Assembly: GCA_025934635.1 (NCBI GenBank)
Contig: JAICWX010000278.1
Coordinates: 1 to 11,196 of the forward strand
DNA: 11,196 nucleotides
Reading direction: 5' to 3'
Source: Streptosporangiaceae bacterium
GTDB taxonomy: Bacteria; Actinomycetota; Actinomycetes; Streptosporangiales; Streptosporangiaceae
Of this stretch, positions 706 through 11,196 are shown piece after piece (positions within the stretch are counted from its first letter, which is position 1; every line of letters starts with the position of its first letter). A program made the translations under genes and the position numbers. The notes below the pieces were generated by a model. It was not told the origin of the DNA, made no database searches, and saw nothing but the letters and a program-made list of their open reading frames with translations.

Positions 706-726
706 CCGCCCCGGTTTACGGGGCCG
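706..726. terminator. Hairpin between convergent GntR and LAL1 genes
   Basis: GCCCCG (708-713) pairs with CGGGGC (719-724) around a 5-base loop, GTTTA. One further C-G pair (706/726) lies beyond a mismatch. The LAL1 stop codon (716-718, minus strand) falls in the loop, and the GntR stop is 17 bases to the left. The position between two convergent ends suggests a bidirectional terminator. There is no T-tract on either side, as is common in actinomycetes, so termination is inferred from position and stem only. Confidence 0.4.
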
Positions 727-3478
727 GCCCGTCGTGACTGCTGCCGGGCAGCACCTGCCGAAGCTGGCGGCGGGAGGTGATGTCGAGCTTGGCGAAGACC
801 TTGGCCATGTGGTATTCGACGGTGCGCGGGGACAGGAACAGCTGGCCGGCGATCTCCGGGTTGGACAGGCCGGCCCGGGCCAGCCGCGCGATCTGGGCTT
901 CCTGCGGGGTGAGCTGCTCGTGCGGGCTGGCGGTGCGCCGGCGGGCCGTCTCGCCGGTAGCCCGCAGCTCACGCCGGGCCCGTTCGGCGAACGCCTGCAT
1001 GCCGATCGCGGCGAACAGATCGTGCGCGGTGCGCAACTGCTCCCGCGCGTCGGTCCGCCGCCGCTCGCGGCGCAGCCATTCGCCGTAGAGCAGGTGCGCG
1101 CGGGCCAGTTCGGGCCGGAAGCCGGTGCGGCTCAGCCGGCCGATCGCCTCGCGATAGCAGCGCTCGGCGTCCTCGCCGTCGCTGACCAGCGCCCGGGAAC
1201 GCACGTAGATTCCCTGCCCCCAGTCGGTCTGGCCGATGCTGGTCGCATCGGCCAGCCGGCCGAGCGCCTCGGCGGCTAGCTGGTTCTGCCCGGTCCTGGT
1301 GGCCGCCTCGATCAGCTCGGGCAGTGCCCACATGGAAATATGCAGCTCGGGCGCCTGCTCGGCGGCTTGGGCCTCAGCCAGGGCTGTCTCGTAGCGGCCG
1401 AGCCCGTTGTACAGGACGGCGGCTATCCACCGCGGAAGCTGGACTCCTACCCCCTGGCCAGCCGCTCGAGCATCCGCGATCACGGCCTCCATCAGCGGCA
1501 CGGCCTCGGCTTCCGCGCCTCGGAAACCGGCCAGCATCACCGCCCCGGTGAGAGCGTGGCGGCTCCCGGTCGCCACGGCGATCGCCTCCGCCTCGGCGAC
1601 TAGTGAAGCGGCCTCCGCGAAATCGCCGCGCCAGGTCGTGAACACGGCCATCGCGTGCACCCAGATCAGCAGCGGGGTGAGCAAGCCCGCCTCGCGGCAG
1701 GCCCGGATCTCGCGGGCCTGGATTGCATGCCAGCTCTCCTCGTCCCACACCGTGGCGGCGGCGACGACGGCCACATGGCTCCATCGCCGGCGCTCCGCGG
1801 GCGGGATCTCTTCTTCGGCGAAGACCCGCGCCGCCCGGCTCAGCAGGGGTGCCGCCTGGGTTCGTCCCTGGGTAACCAGGATGGCCAGGCCGTCCAGCAG
1901 CAGATCCGACAGGCTGGGCGCGCCGGCGGGTGGCGGCGCTGACTGGGCGGCCCGGGAGATCTCGTGCAGATCGCCGGCGCCCGCGAACTGGCCGGCGAAC
2001 AACGCGGCGTACCACGCATCCAGATAGGTCTGGCGCGCGAGCGCCGCATCGACCGGCTCCAGTTGCCTGGCCGCCTTGACCAGCAACGCCGGGCCCTCGC
2101 CGCCCAGGCTGACGGAGAACGCGATCTGCCCGCGTACCAGGTCGACGAGGGGCTGCTGGCGTTCATCCAGCGGCCCCGCCGCCGCTATGGCGAGCAGCTC
2201 GGACGCCGCATCGAACGCTCCGGTCGTGGCGTTCGCCTGCGCGGCCGCCAGAGCCCGCCCGGAGCGCCGGGCGGAGTCGGCCGTCAGCTCGACCGATCGC
2301 TGCAAGAACGCCGCCGCGGCGGCCATCCCGCCCCGAGCCTGCGCCCGGCCCGCCGACCGCTCCAGCTCCGCGGCCACCTGCTCGTCGGGTCCCGGCGCGG
2401 CCGCGGCCAGGTGCCACGCCCGCCGGTCCGGGTCACGGTCACGGTCGGTCACCTCGGCCAGAGCCCGGTGCGCCGCCCGCCGCTCCGGCAGCGGCGCCGT
2501 CGCGTAGACCGCCGACCGGACCAGCGGATGCCGGAACCGGACTCCGGTCCCGATCTCCAGCAACCCGTCGGCCTCGGCGGCGGCCGAGGCCGAGGCCGGG
2601 ATCCCGAGCCGCCCGGCCGCCTGCCACACGGCCAGCGAATCGCCGGTCGGATCCAGCGCCGCGACCAGCATCAGCGACCGCGTATCCGCAGGCAGCGCCG
2701 CCAGCCGCCGCCGGAAGACCGCTTCGATCCGCGTCGGGACCGCTCCCACCGGCCCCAGGCCGCCCGCCAGCTGGGTCGGGTCCTGACCGCGCGGCAGCTC
2801 GAGCAGCGCCAGCGGGTTGCCGTTGGCCTCGGCCAGGATCCGGTCCTGGGCCCGCTCATCGAGCCCGAACCCGACCACCGACCGCAGCAGCGTGCGGGCT
2901 TCAGGGGCCGGCAAACCCGCCACCTCCAGGTCCGCCAGCCCGCGCAAGTGCTCTCCGGGCTCACGCGCGACGAAGACCAGTCCCACCGGCTCGGCCAGCA
3001 GGCGCCGGGCCGCGAACGCCAGCACCTGGGCCGACGCCGCATCCAGCCACTGCGCGTCATCGATGGCGCACAGCAGCGGCCGTTCCCCGGCCGCATCCGA
3101 CAGCAAGGTCAGCACCGCCAGCCCGACCATGAACCGGTCTGGCACGCCCCCCTCCCGCAGCCCGAACGCGACACCGAGCGCATCGCGCTGCGGCACCGGC
3201 AGGCGTTCCAGCCGGTCCAGCAGCGGCGCGCACAGCAGATGCAAGCTGGCGAACGCCAGTTCCAGCTCCGATTCCACCCCCGCCGCCCGGACCACCTGCA
3301 TGTCCGCCGCCGCGCCGATCATGTACTCCAGCAGCGCCGACTTGCCGACACCGGCCTCACCCCGCAGTACCAGTGCCCGCCCGCGTCCCGACCGCAGCTC
3401 CCCGAGCAGGCCATCGAGCGTCGCCCGCTCCTGCTGCCGGTTCAGCAGCGCGAGCGCCGGCTTATCTCCCGTCCGCAT
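716..3478 (-). CDS. LAL-type LuxR-family transcriptional regulator (LAL1)
   Basis: This is a large ATP-dependent transcriptional activator of the MalT/LAL class: an N-terminal STAND-type ATPase, a long helical repeat middle and a C-terminal LuxR helix-turn-helix, 920 residues in all. The Walker A motif GEAGVGKS is at residues 40-47 and Walker B LLCAIDDAQWLD at ~135-146. The NTPase-tail motif GNPLALLEL is at ~220-228 and FRHPLVRSAVY at ~315-325. The middle is alanine- and arginine-rich, consistent with degenerate TPR-like helices, and includes the LAL signature ELARAHLLYGEWLRR. The HTH covers ~856-910 (LTPQEAQIARLA... SPRTVEYHMAKVFAKLDI). I chose ATG 3478 because GGAGG lies 7 bases upstream; TTG 3484 is only 1 base from it. 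Length is normal for the family. It diverges from LAL2. The ligand and targets are unknown; actinomycete LALs often control specialised metabolism or sugar use. Confidence 0.95.
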   Translation of the reverse strand: MRTGDKPALALLNRQQERATLDGLLGELRSGRGRALVLRGEAGVGKSALLEYMIGAAADMQVVRAAGVESELELAFASLHLLCAPLLDRLERLPVPQRDALGVAFGLREGGVPDRFMVGLAVLTLLSDAAGERPLLCAIDDAQWLDAASAQVLAFAARRLLAEPVGLVFVAREPGEHLRGLADLEVAGLPAPEARTLLRSVVGFGLDERAQDRILAEANGNPLALLELPRGQDPTQLAGGLGPVGAVPTRIEAVFRRRLAALPADTRSLMLVAALDPTGDSLAVWQAAGRLGIPASASAAAEADGLLEIGTGVRFRHPLVRSAVYATAPLPERRAAHRALAEVTDRDRDPDRRAWHLAAAAPGPDEQVAAELERSAGRAQARGGMAAAAAFLQRSVELTADSARRSGRALAAAQANATTGAFDAASELLAIAAAGPLDERQQPLVDLVRGQIAFSVSLGGEGPALLVKAARQLEPVDAALARQTYLDAWYAALFAGQFAGAGDLHEISRAAQSAPPPAGAPSLSDLLLDGLAILVTQGRTQAAPLLSRAARVFAEEEIPPAERRRWSHVAVVAAATVWDEESWHAIQAREIRACREAGLLTPLLIWVHAMAVFTTWRGDFAEAASLVAEAEAIAVATGSRHALTGAVMLAGFRGAEAEAVPLMEAVIADARAAGQGVGVQLPRWIAAVLYNGLGRYETALAEAQAAEQAPELHISMWALPELIEAATRTGQNQLAAEALGRLADATSIGQTDWGQGIYVRSRALVSDGEDAERCYREAIGRLSRTGFRPELARAHLLYGEWLRRERRRTDAREQLRTAHDLFAAIGMQAFAERARRELRATGETARRRTASPHEQLTPQEAQIARLARAGLSNPEIAGQLFLSPRTVEYHMAKVFAKLDITSRRQLRQVLPGSSHDGPAP

Positions 3479-3485
3479 GCCCAAG

Positions 3486-3764: not shown

Positions 3765-6521
3765 TTGCTGGACCGGGCGGCGGAGACCGGCGCGCTGGAG
3801 GGCGTGCAGGCAGCGGTCCGCGACGGGCTCAGCGGGGTGCTGGTGCTGCGCGGCGAGGCCGGGGCCGGCAAGACGGCGCTGCTGGACTGGGCGGCCGAGC
3901 AGGCCGGCGACATGCAGGTGGCCCGGGTAGCCGGCGCCGAGGCCGAGATGGACATGGGCTTCGCCGGCCTGCACCAGCTGCTGATCCCGTTCCTGGCCGG
4001 CCTCGAGGGTCTTCCGCTGCCGCAGCAGCAGGCCCTCAAGTCGGCGTTCGGGCTGGTCGCAGGCCCGCCGCCGGACCGCTTCCTGGTCGGCCTGGCCGCC
4101 TTGACGATGCTGACCGACGCGGCGGCCGCGCGCCCGGTGCTGTGCATCGTCGACGACGCCCAGTGGCTCGACCAGGTATCGATCGAGGTACTCGGGTTTG
4201 TCGCCCGGCGCCTGTACGCGGACCGGGTGGGCATGGTGTTCGCGGTCCGCGAGGGCGAGGGACAGCCGCTGATCCTGGCCGGGCTGCCGGAGCTGACGGT
4301 CGCCGGGCTGGCCGAAGAGGCAGCGCGGGAGCTGCTGGCGCGGTCGGCCGGCACGCAGGTTGACCGGCAGGTGGGCTGGCGCATCGTGGCCGACACGGCC
4401 GGTAACCCGCTGGCACTGGTCGAGCTGGCCGCGGAGCTGACCGCCGCCGAGTTGTCGGGTACCGAGCCGCTGGACTGGCCGTTGCGATTCCGCGGCCGTC
4501 TGGAGGAGCTGTACCGGTCCCGGCTGCGAGCGCTGCCCGGCGGCACCCAGACGCTGCTGCTGCTGGCGGCGGCCGACCCGACCGGGGAACCCGCACTGAT
4601 CTGGGACGCGGCCCGCAAGCTGGGGATCGATCCCGGGGCGGCCGAGGCCACCGGCGCGGACCGGCTGGTGTCCTGGGAACCGCGGGTACGGTTCCGTCAT
4701 CCGCTGATCCGGTCAGCGGCGTACTACGCCTTCCCGGCCGCGGCGCGGCGCGACGCCCACCAGGCGCTGGCCACGGTCACCGACCCGGAGGCTGATCCGG
4801 ACCGGCGCGCCTGGCACCTGGCCGAGGCCGCGGCCGGCCCGGACGAGCAGGTGGCCGCCGAGCTGGAGCGGTCGGCCGACCGGGCGCGCGGCCGGGGCGG
4901 CTGGAGCAGCGGCGCCGCCTTCCTGGAGCGCGCGGCCGCGCTGACCCCGGACGAGGAGCACCGGGCCCGGCGGATGCTGGCCGCGGCCGAGAACCGGCTG
5001 GCGGCCGGGGAGGCCCCGGCCGCGCGGGCGCTGCTGGGCCTGGCCGCCCCGCGGCTGGCCGATGTGCTGGCCCGGGCGCGGGCCCGGCGGCTGGAGGGCC
5101 AGAGCCTGTACGCGGCCGGGCAGATGCCCGAGGCGACGTCGGTGCTGCTCGACGCGGCCGAGCTGGTGCAGTCGTTCGAGCTCCGGCTGGCCCGCGACAC
5201 CCTGCTGGACGCGTGGGGAGCGGCGCAGTTCTCCGGCCAGCCCGGGGCCGGGATGGCCGAGTTCCTGCGGGCGGTCCGCTCGGTGCCGGCCGTGGCGGAC
5301 GCCCGCGCCACCGTGGCCGACCTGCTGCTTGACGGCTTCGCGGCGGTCGGCGAGCGCCGCGACGATGCTGGCGCCGCGCTGCTCCGCCGGGCCATCACGC
5401 CGCTGTTCGCCGGCCAGTCGATGGCCGACGAGGCCTTGCCGCACCTGATGGCCATGGCCATGGCGGCCGGCATGCTGTACGACGACTCGGCCCGGCACCA
5501 GATGGAGAAGCGGTGGGTGGGGGAGCTGCGCGACCGGGGCGCGATCGCGGCGCTGCTGCCCGCGCTCGGCATCCAGATGAGCGCCCAGATCGACGAGGGC
5601 CGCTTCGCGGACGCCGAGACCACGCTGGCCGAGGCGCGGTCGCTGTCCGAGGCGACGGGTTACCGGGCCTACCTGCGGGCCTATGCCCGGGCGGAGCTGT
5701 GGGCGCTGGCCCTGCGCGGTCGTGAGGCGCAGGCCCGCCCGCTCGCCGCCCGGCTGCTGCGCGAGTTCGCCGAGCGGGGCAACCGGTACGAGGTCCTGCG
5801 GGTGCAGGGCGCGCTAGCCATGCTCGAGCTGGGCCTGGGCAACTACGATGCCGCGCTGCGCCACGCGCTGGATGCTCTCCCGGGACAGAACGTGCTGGGA
5901 TTTCGCCAGGTGGCCGAGGTGGTCGAGGCCGGAACCAGGTGCGGGGAGCACGAGAGCGCGGCAGCTGCCCTGAAGGCCTTCGCGTCCTGGGCGCTGGCGA
6001 GCGGGACCGACCTGGCCCTGGGGCTGCTGGCCCGCAGCCGGGCGCTGCTGGCCGATGACGGCCGGGCTGAGGCGCAGTACCAGCTGGCCATCGATCACCT
6101 GCGGCGCTGCCGGCTGGTCCCGGAGCTGGCCCGGGCCCACCTGGTATACGGGGAGTGGCTACGTCGCCAGCGCCGCCGCCGCGACGCCCGCGATCAGCTC
6201 CGCCGTGCCTTCGAGCTGTTCGACGAGATGGGCCTGACGGCTTTCGCGGGCCGGGCCCGGACCGAATTGCGCGCTACCGGTGAGCAGGCCAGCCCACGGG
6301 GCCCCGGAACCCCGGAGGTCCTCACGGCGCAAGAGGCGCAGATCGCCCGGCTGGCCGCCGAGCGCCTGTCCAACCGGGAGATCGCCGGCCGGCTGTTCAT
6401 CAGCGCCAGCACGGTCGAGTACCACCTGCGCAAGGTGTTCCGCAAGCTAGGCGTCACCAGCCGGGGACAGCTCGCCCGGACATTCTCAGAAAACGGGCAG
6501 CCGCCGTCCTGGCGGGACTGA
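3765..6521 (+). CDS. LAL-type LuxR-family transcriptional regulator (LAL2)
   Basis: This is an ATPase-coupled transcriptional activator of the LAL class, 918 residues from TTG 3765. Walker A GEAGAGKT is at residues 30-37 and Walker B VLCIVDDAQWLD at ~125-136. GNPLALVEL is at ~213-221 and VRFRHPLIRSAAY at ~308-320. A long helical TPR-like middle follows, containing the family motif ELARAHLVYGEWLRRQ, then a LuxR HTH at ~853-905 (LTAQEAQIARLA... TVEYHLRKVFRKLGV). It is the most divergent of the three: its recognition helix begins SASTVEYH where LAL1 and LAL3 have SPRTVEYH. No ATG or GTG is in frame before the ATPase; the in-frame TGA at 3732-3734 limits the start to ATT 3756, TTG 3765 or CTG 3768. 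A one-base indel near 3758 would instead join a GTG start (3728 or 3731) to this frame. It converges on the BON gene 12 bases away. Target genes are unknown. Confidence 0.92.
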   Translation: MLDRAAETGALEGVQAAVRDGLSGVLVLRGEAGAGKTALLDWAAEQAGDMQVARVAGAEAEMDMGFAGLHQLLIPFLAGLEGLPLPQQQALKSAFGLVAGPPPDRFLVGLAALTMLTDAAAARPVLCIVDDAQWLDQVSIEVLGFVARRLYADRVGMVFAVREGEGQPLILAGLPELTVAGLAEEAARELLARSAGTQVDRQVGWRIVADTAGNPLALVELAAELTAAELSGTEPLDWPLRFRGRLEELYRSRLRALPGGTQTLLLLAAADPTGEPALIWDAARKLGIDPGAAEATGADRLVSWEPRVRFRHPLIRSAAYYAFPAAARRDAHQALATVTDPEADPDRRAWHLAEAAAGPDEQVAAELERSADRARGRGGWSSGAAFLERAAALTPDEEHRARRMLAAAENRLAAGEAPAARALLGLAAPRLADVLARARARRLEGQSLYAAGQMPEATSVLLDAAELVQSFELRLARDTLLDAWGAAQFSGQPGAGMAEFLRAVRSVPAVADARATVADLLLDGFAAVGERRDDAGAALLRRAITPLFAGQSMADEALPHLMAMAMAAGMLYDDSARHQMEKRWVGELRDRGAIAALLPALGIQMSAQIDEGRFADAETTLAEARSLSEATGYRAYLRAYARAELWALALRGREAQARPLAARLLREFAERGNRYEVLRVQGALAMLELGLGNYDAALRHALDALPGQNVLGFRQVAEVVEAGTRCGEHESAAAALKAFASWALASGTDLALGLLARSRALLADDGRAEAQYQLAIDHLRRCRLVPELARAHLVYGEWLRRQRRRRDARDQLRRAFELFDEMGLTAFAGRARTELRATGEQASPRGPGTPEVLTAQEAQIARLAAERLSNREIAGRLFISASTVEYHLRKVFRKLGVTSRGQLARTFSENGQPPSWRD

Positions 6522-7190: not shown

Positions 7191-7194
7191 GGTT

Positions 7195-7199
7195 TCCTC
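7195..7199 (-). promoter_or_regulatory. Ribosome binding site of the BON gene
   Basis: On the minus strand GAGGA lies 4 bases before ATG 7190. This supports the 218-residue start over the 29-codon longer alternative at 7277. Confidence 0.65.
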
Positions 7200-7227
7200 G
7201 CCGGGTCCAGTTGCCTTGCCGGGCTTC

Positions 7228-7275
7228 ACGCTACGGCCAGCCCGCCGGGCACCGCATCCTTGAAAGTCCTTAGTC
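7228..7275 (-). promoter_or_regulatory. BON-gene promoter with upstream activator box
   Basis: Reading the minus strand, the box GACTAAGGAC (7275-7266) is followed after 32 bases by TAGCGT (7233-7228), which fits the actinomycete -10 pattern TAGNNT. The -35 position reads TGCGGT, a poor match, so an activator is likely. The start point would be near 7221, leaving a leader of about 30 bases before ATG 7190. The identical geometry on the opposite strand for LAL3 is the main support. Confidence 0.5.
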
Positions 7276-7322
7276 ATGCCCCCGGGAGATCACCCGTCCG
7301 GCGCGTCCGCGGGACTAAGGAC
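7266..7322. repeat. Perfect 10-base inverted repeat, paired regulator boxes
   Basis: GTCCTTAGTC (7266-7275) and GACTAAGGAC (7313-7322) are exact reverse complements with 37 bases between and centres 47 bases apart. Each box lies in the same orientation and at the same distance relative to the promoter it faces, so they are best read as two binding sites of one regulator. The right copy reads GGGACTAAGGACC, which contains the GGGACT half-site of mycobacterial DosR boxes. The second half is a poorer match. Confidence 0.6.
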
Positions 7323-7360
7323 CTTCCGGGATTCGGGCGAGCCCCCCCGATCCCTAGCGT
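7313..7360 (+). promoter_or_regulatory. LAL3 promoter with upstream activator box
   Basis: GACTAAGGAC (7313-7322) is followed after exactly 32 bases by TAGCGT (7355-7360), a TAGNNT-type -10. The -35 position (7332-7337) reads TTCGGG, a weak match, with a 17-base spacer. A start near 7367 would give a leader of about 50 bases before ATG 7418. The box centre would lie near -50, a usual place for a NarL/DosR-type activator. Confidence 0.5.
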
Positions 7361-7417
7361 CGGTTATGCCGGACGTATCCCGCGGTCGGATCGAACAGAT
7401 CAAAGGGGTGAGCACCA

Positions 7418-10230: not shown

Positions 10231-11196
10231 ATGGCTTCTGTCATTCCCGTCGGCGAGTTCGCCCGTGACGAGTGGTATCCGGGGTTCAAGCCGGACGATG
10301 ACCAGGCGCCGCGGTACGTCGATCCGGTGCGGAGGTTCCGCCCGGACGATGAGCAGGAGCTCTGGTTCCTGGACTTCCACTTTCCGCGCGGCCTGACCCC
10401 GATGGGGCTGATCTTCAACCAGGACGGCTACAACTGGAGCACCCAGCTAGCGGCCGAGCAGCTGCCGCTGCCATCCGGGCGCGGGCTGACCGGCCGGATG
10501 GCCGGCACCCACACCTACGGCTCAGCGATCAGCGTCGACGATCCGCGAGAGATCGGCCAGCGGGCCCGGCGGCTGGAACATGCCCTGCCCGGGTTCCTCC
10601 GGGATTTCGGCCCGGCCTGGGGGCGGATGCGGGAGGAAATCGACCAGGGCTGGGACCATTTCCGCAGCGTCGACCACTGCGCGCTGTCCCTGCCGGACCT
10701 GCGGGAGAACCTCGTCCAGGCCCGCCGGTACCTCAAGCGGTCCGCCGAGATCCATTTCCAGGTGATGTACCCGCTGCTGGCCAACTACGCCGGCTTCTAC
10801 AGCCTGTGCACCGAGCTCGGCCTGGACCCGGGCCAGATCGGCAAGTTCCTGCAGGGCTACGACACCAAGATCATGGAAACCGACCGCGAGCTGTGGCGCC
10901 TGACCACCGCCGCCCGCGCGGCCGGCCTGGAATCGGTGTTCGCGGGCAACGACGCCGGCCAGCTCCGCTCCGCCCTGGCCGTCCACGGCGGCAGCGCCAG
11001 CACCTGGCTGACCACCTTCGATGACTTCCTCCAGGTCTACGGCTGGCGCACCGAAGGCTCCTGTGACATCGCCCTGCCCAGCTGGAACGAGGACCCCACC
11101 CCCGCCCTGGGCATGATCAAGTCGTTCCTGCAGAAAGACACCGTGCACGACTTCGAGAAGGCCCGCGCCGCCGCCGTCGAGGAACGCGAGGCCGCC
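10231..11196 (+). CDS. PEP-utilising enzyme-like subunit (PEP synthase / phosphotransferase family), 3' end cut
   Basis: Frame 1 is open from ATG 10231 to the window edge, 322 codons. The sequence resembles the substrate/linker part of PEP synthase-like phosphotransferases, the family of rifampin phosphotransferase and phenylphosphate synthase. Its landmarks are an N-terminal WFLDFHFPRGLTPMGL (~45-60), FLQGYDTKIMETDRELW (~206-222), FDDFLQVYGWR (~263-273) and PSWNEDPTPALGMIKSFL (~283-300). I recognise these from family memory, not from a search. There is no ATP-grasp domain before them, so the nucleotide-binding part is probably a separate protein. The swivelling phosphohistidine domain would be expected past the window edge. 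It follows LAL3 with overlapping translation signals, so LAL3 is probably its regulator or at least co-expressed. The substrate is unknown. No signal peptide is seen, so it should act in the cytoplasm. Confidence 0.65.
   Translation, partial: MASVIPVGEFARDEWYPGFKPDDDQAPRYVDPVRRFRPDDEQELWFLDFHFPRGLTPMGLIFNQDGYNWSTQLAAEQLPLPSGRGLTGRMAGTHTYGSAISVDDPREIGQRARRLEHALPGFLRDFGPAWGRMREEIDQGWDHFRSVDHCALSLPDLRENLVQARRYLKRSAEIHFQVMYPLLANYAGFYSLCTELGLDPGQIGKFLQGYDTKIMETDRELWRLTTAARAAGLESVFAGNDAGQLRSALAVHGGSASTWLTTFDDFLQVYGWRTEGSCDIALPSWNEDPTPALGMIKSFLQKDTVHDFEKARAAAVEEREAA

Follow-up and report, generated by a model that had tools for sequence, protein, structure and literature searches.

The 227-nt intergenic region (7191–7417) between a gene for a BON-domain stress protein and LAL3, a gene for a large ATP-binding LuxR-type regulator, probably contains two divergent, activator-dependent class II promoters that share one activator, a reading to which we assign a probability of roughly 0.68. 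This region lies in an 11,196-nt stretch of DNA, hereafter the window, and is bounded by the predicted start codons of the BON gene (7190, minus strand) and of LAL3 (7418, plus strand; see Table 1 for all features). Each promoter would comprise a −10 of the TANNNT type (TAGCGT), no good −35 element and a 24-nt activator site oriented with its own promoter. A single activator, bound beside both −35 regions, would turn on expression of the BON stress protein in one direction and of LAL3 together with the following open reading frame (ORF) in the other. A promoter pair of this kind is of a familiar type, and a divergent promoter region shared by two genes is an ordinary arrangement.

Architecture of the intergenic region

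The 10-mer GACTAAGGAC occurred in exactly two copies in the whole window, at 7313–7322 on the plus strand and at 7266–7275 on the minus strand, both pointing outwards, and each copy was followed by exactly 32 nt and then by TAGCGT. This geometry had been described in an earlier note on the same DNA and was exact on re-check, as were its statements that in the 14 nt directly behind the 10-mer 10 positions match between the strands (TTC, GGAT and CGG) and that the next 18 nt are unrelated (4/18 matching). From the 10-mer through the hexamer, 30/48 positions match. The fuller unit was a 24-nt block, GACTAAGGACYTTCNNGGATNCGG, 20/24 identical across strands and followed by 18 mostly different nt and the −10. 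A repeat search independently paired the two arms as an inverted repeat of 24 nt with 83% complementarity and a separation of 37 nt.

Table 1. Features of the BON/LAL3 intergenic region and its flanking genes (positions in the window).
Feature	Position	Strand	Remarks
BON gene, OsmY-like, BON domains, 218 aa	6534..7190	−	Pfam PF04972, 3 stretches
Shine-Dalgarno-like GAGGAAA, BON gene	7193..7199	−	Sequence
Predicted −10 TAGCGT, BON	7228..7233	−	Predicted start near 7221; register kept in 4/5 N-extended homologues
24-nt block, BON promoter, GACTAAGGACTTTCAAGGATGCGG	7252..7275	−	Box 7266–7275, GGAT 7256–7259; sequence, homologue extensions
Spacer between arms	7276..7312	.	37 nt, repeat search
24-nt block, LAL3 promoter, GACTAAGGACCTTCCGGGATTCGG	7313..7336	+	Box 7313–7322, GGAT 7329–7332; putatively activator-type; 20/24 identical to minus copy
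Predicted −10 TAGCGT, LAL3	7355..7360	+	Fits TANNNT; predicted start near 7366–7367
Shine-Dalgarno-like AAAGGGGTG, LAL3	7402..7410	+	Sequence
LAL3, large ATP-binding LuxR-type regulator, 934 aa	7418..10222	+	AAA_16 and GerE
Downstream ORF, cut by window end	10231..11196	+	Distant likeness to PRK08296 / PEP-utilising enzymes

If each −10 is placed at −12 to −7, the block extends in both predicted promoters from −54 to −31 and is centred on −42.5, where a class II activator would sit, and GGAT falls at −38 to −35 on both strands. Within the block, AAGGAC and NNGGAT recur by eye at 10-nt spacing. The predicted leaders are ~31 nt (BON) and ~51 nt (LAL3) long, and both predicted −10s lie upstream of genes that have Shine-Dalgarno-like sequences. 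Among hexamers 15–19 nt before either −10, none exceeded 2/6 matches to TTGACA, and so weak a −35 would fit dependence on an activator. A promoter scan reported no site; its −10 model would reject TAGCGT, which shares 3/6 positions with TATAAT. What would mark an activator-dependent divergent pair, namely TANNNT hexamers, no good −35 and an equal site at an equal distance on both strands, was found here. The earlier note had proposed one activator and one sigma factor acting both ways; one activator is indeed the most likely reading, whereas the sigma part says little because TAGCGT is a generic TANNNT, the housekeeping-type −10.

No further composite site (≤8 mismatches, plus TANNNT) was present in the window besides these two, and thus LAL1, LAL2 and the ORF at 10231 have no composite site of their own. 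An Rfam search gave no match at gathering thresholds. An RNA hairpin formed by the two arms was rejected by reasoning: both predicted transcripts would start outside the arms, so neither would contain both of them.

Promoter register in homologues of the BON gene

As called mechanically, the ORF of the BON gene opens with an ATG at 7277, inside the promoter; the start was taken as 7190, since an equivalent start was used in 115 of the 120 listed BON homologues. Three of the 120 (P0017, P0062 and P0094) are named Streptosporangiaceae bacterium, which makes an uncultivated member of this family's kin the likely host. The five homologues with a different start were N-extended, and their extensions can be read as translations of promoter DNA, the predicted start having been set too far upstream. 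Each of the five extensions was slid along both strands of the window, with every codon in its best-fitting synonymous form. In this way conservation was read through protein extensions and on the BON side only, with synonymous positions invisible.

Four of the five extensions placed best on the BON-side promoter, in the same register. The strongest case was P0030 (MTKDFHGFGSRRADRSVEPG...), whose best place was minus 7277: over 20 codons, 55/60 bases were compatible (z 8.7), and the first 20 residues agree with the window's frame at 15 positions. It covers the box, GGAT and the −10, and thus the whole BON-promoter block, and is the sole extension of the five to cover the 10-mer. Its remaining 16 codons added 22/48, against a background of 22.8, so that the likeness ends after the −10; its leader is 7 codons longer than that of the window. 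The extensions of P0056, P0019 and P0112, which cover the block from GGAT on, all placed best at minus 7261 on their first 15 codons (z 5.6, 5.1 and 5.4, respectively), a placing in which GGAY precedes the −10 by 22 nt, the distance seen in the window. These three start downstream of the 10-mer and are therefore uninformative on it. Over the full extensions the leads over the next place were narrow for P0019 (54 vs 53) and P0112 (64 vs 62), and the fifth extension, P0029, had its best place off the promoter when both strands of the window were scanned. Over 20 codons, P0030 had its second-best place at plus 7311 (42/60, z 4.5), which is the LAL3-side copy with the register kept; this place was tied second on 15 codons and outside the top four on all 36, and it depends on the likeness of the two window copies and so is not independent.

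Overall, the register from block to −10 on the BON side looks constrained and the leader unconstrained, as far as protein extensions reveal it. The proposal of selection on boxes and spacing thus gained support on the BON side, where four of the five N-extended homologues were in register, with the 10-mer itself covered by one of the five. In protein searches with the extended BON ORF, its first 40 residues gave no match, and 58 residues matched 12 proteins, each over 50% of the query.

Chance and repression as explanations of the inverted arms

The match between strands was compared with 3000 dinucleotide shuffles of this 227-nt sequence, of which 161 contained a divergent, non-overlapping inverted 10-mer; the 10-mer is therefore weak by itself (about 5%). 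Adding an identical 6-mer in the same register 10–45 nt downstream left 1/3000 shuffles, a 24-mer that started with the inverted 10-mer and had ≥20 identities was seen in 0/3000, and a 48-mer with ≥30 identities in 5/3000. These figures supersede an earlier count that included self-overlapping palindromes (386/1000 for a 10-nt run, 143/1000 for 30/48 and 32/1000 for the composite). The composite of 10-mer, register and hexamer is hard to explain by chance; its true significance is somewhat lower than the counts, because it was picked after the whole window had been viewed. The arms could still be accidental, or a non-regulatory relic such as an inverted duplication or the terminal repeats of a mobile element lying over two unrelated promoters, and the shuffle counts for the bare 10-mer and for 30/48 identities leave some room for this. 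Against it stand the rarity of the composite and the behaviour of P0030, whose likeness runs from the block through the −10 and then stops, an end that terminal repeats would not give, and we regard such an origin as very unlikely.

The inverted arrangement, with arms 37 nt apart, would also suit a common repressor operator, or two sites bridged by one repressor. This is improbable in our view, because the block is oriented and spaced relative to each −10 as an activator site beside −35 would be, because neither promoter has a good −35, and because 47 nt (about 4.5 turns) separate the box centres, which puts the boxes on opposite faces of the DNA.

Candidate activators

Granted a shared activator, the leading candidates are a DosR/OsdR-like response regulator of the NarL family, possible but tentative, and one of the three adjacent LAL regulators, rather doubtful; the remaining probability falls to some other factor. 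A hypoxia/stress regulator that bound the block as a DosR/DevR/OsdR-type site would activate both genes. For the comparison we used the DosR consensus sequences given in PMC6448022. The weak consensus RRGNCYWNNGNMM was matched with 0 mismatches at both boxes (7264–7276 and 7311–7323), but it was also matched in 155/1000 shuffles. For the stringent consensus GGGACTTNNGNCCCT, the plus copy had 10 of 12 specified bases, a match equalled in 49/1000 shuffles, but the minus copy had only 7/12, so that the stringent palindrome is not shared by both copies; the window held 2 stringent sites vs 1.07 expected, little excess. With up to three mismatches allowed, the OsdR palindrome AGGGCCGATCGGCCCT was absent from the window; the closest match within the region had 7. 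The predicted position also differs from that of a reported site: the box centre lies at about −49.5, and the 3′ edge of a 20-nt site would be 39–40 nt from the predicted start, vs 34 nt reported for DrrS, a one-promoter yardstick (PMC5360333). Finally, a DosR site would leave the shared GGATNCGG unexplained.

Known divergent pairs under this family resemble the present one in part. The genes tgs1-Rv3131 of Mycobacterium tuberculosis form a divergent pair under DevR (PMC3029386), with activator sites in one intergenic region and the proximal site near −35, and our box core fits the weak DosR consensus; unlike that pair, the window has a poor palindrome in the minus copy, a site about 5–6 nt further upstream, the extra GGATNCGG and one copy per promoter. 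Similarly, SCO0207/SCO0208 of Streptomyces coelicolor is described in PMC5069765 as a divergent pair bound by OsdR, with divergent USP/PPDK genes as OsdR targets, so that there too genes for a stress protein and a PEP-type enzyme diverge with sites between them, but here AGGGCCGATCGGCCCT is missing at the tolerance given above. A Bon-domain protein was also among those more abundant in later isolates of Burkholderia, according to a paper on a low-oxygen-activated locus (PMC6127331).

One region (L129) of the megaplasmid p1 of Streptomyces sp. BHT-5-2 carries, at positions 5900–15040 of that region, two CBS-BON genes, an Hsp20 gene, a response regulator and a GAF-GAF-HisKA_3 kinase. The last two form what we call an OsdKR-like pair, and a USP gene, named by eye, is also present. 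Here 5 OsdR palindromes stood against 0.33 expected; one lay between the USP gene and a CBS-BON gene, which diverge, and the regulator too was preceded by such a palindrome. However, in three further stretches of this plasmid that bear BON genes the counts were 1, 2 and 0 vs about 0.3, and thus its BON genes are not all tied to OsdR sites. Membership of BON genes in a regulon of this kind is thereby shown to be possible, without its being shown for the BON gene of the window.

Alternatively, an adjacent LAL (MalT-like) regulator, most simply LAL3 itself, might bind the block and activate its own promoter together with that of the BON gene. Three LAL genes lie within the window; GGAT occupies the −35 region on both strands, and the 10-nt recurrence inside the block could serve as a direct repeat. 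There is a precedent in Actinoplanes sp. SE50/110, where, according to PMC7567727, a MalT-like LAL regulator activates most of its own 51-gene region through a motif with GGATGA overlapping −35. The likeness extends to LAL genes inside the region and GGAT over −35, but the Actinoplanes palindrome TCATCC-N5-GGATGA does not recur here: in register, both copies matched at 6/12 and agreed in the position of GGAT alone, and the best match in the region (8/12) lay elsewhere and was equalled by 490/1000 shuffles. The E. coli MalT box was matched at 7/10, and 999/1000 shuffles did as well. Nor did seven related LAL3-like loci on actinobacterial replicons (L115–L121, 53–59% identity; seven of 38 records were looked at) carry a composite site, and none stood before LAL1 or LAL2. 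Binding by LAL3 or a neighbour is rather unlikely on these comparisons.

It is similarly speculative that the block is the site of an undescribed class of activator, for instance a LAL regulator on an asymmetric direct repeat (NNGGAY, 10-nt spacing) that would control its own gene and the BON stress gene. If so, the block would be the signature of a regulon shared by uncultivated, Streptosporangiaceae-like bacteria; were the site DosR-like instead, BON and LAL genes would join the hypoxia/stress regulon of a lineage about which little is known. To our knowledge, LAL regulators are widespread among actinobacteria and only a few of them have been assigned a binding site or a target; one abstract describes them as poorly studied. 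An experimentally accessible site linking a LAL regulator to a BON stress gene would offer an entry point.

Genes flanking the region

The window contains three large LAL genes (AAA_16 plus GerE) in 11 kb, LAL3 being preceded by genes at 716–3484 (−) and 3765–6521 (+), and a GntR/UTRA regulator gene stands at the window edge beside this cluster. LAL3 and the ORF at 10231 are likely to be co-transcribed, judging by the 8-nt gap between them. The label of PEP-utilising enzyme that this ORF had been given is weak: neither Pfam (E 0.001) nor the PDB sequences (E 0.01) yielded a match, two annotated PEP-utilizing enzymes are 21–23% identical to it, and the faint likeness of the truncated ORF to NCBIfam models for PRK08296, prodigiosin ligase PigC and PEP synthase lies far below cut-off.

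Searches beyond the window

A genome-contig scan with the BON protein returned only two Sphingomonas loci at 40% identity and no actinobacterial orthologue, and the protein had no match in the six LAL3-like records searched with it, in a search that ran without a positive control. When the intergenic region was compared with plasmids by BLAST, the matches listed, from 20 of 27 records, were all fragments of 28–37 nt. Viral contigs contained no match to the 24-mer and no relatives of the BON or LAL proteins; they held 107 short-pattern matches, a count without a yardstick for the window's host. The string GACTAAGGAC occurs in 17 papers of the collection searched, and the ten that were listed concern other subjects by title. 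The pattern GACTAAGGNC was present on five of seven actinobacterial replicons (W01 and four of W02–W07) and showed no enrichment on the seven, being rarer than the reversed control pattern wherever it was present. Its two copies on W01 have identical flanks that, in our own reading, look like rRNA. One of the LAL3-like records, from Nonomuraea gerenzanensis (NZ_LT559118.1), is listed as plasmid I although at 11.85 Mb it is chromosome-sized; the plasmid table gives it 10 annotated features.
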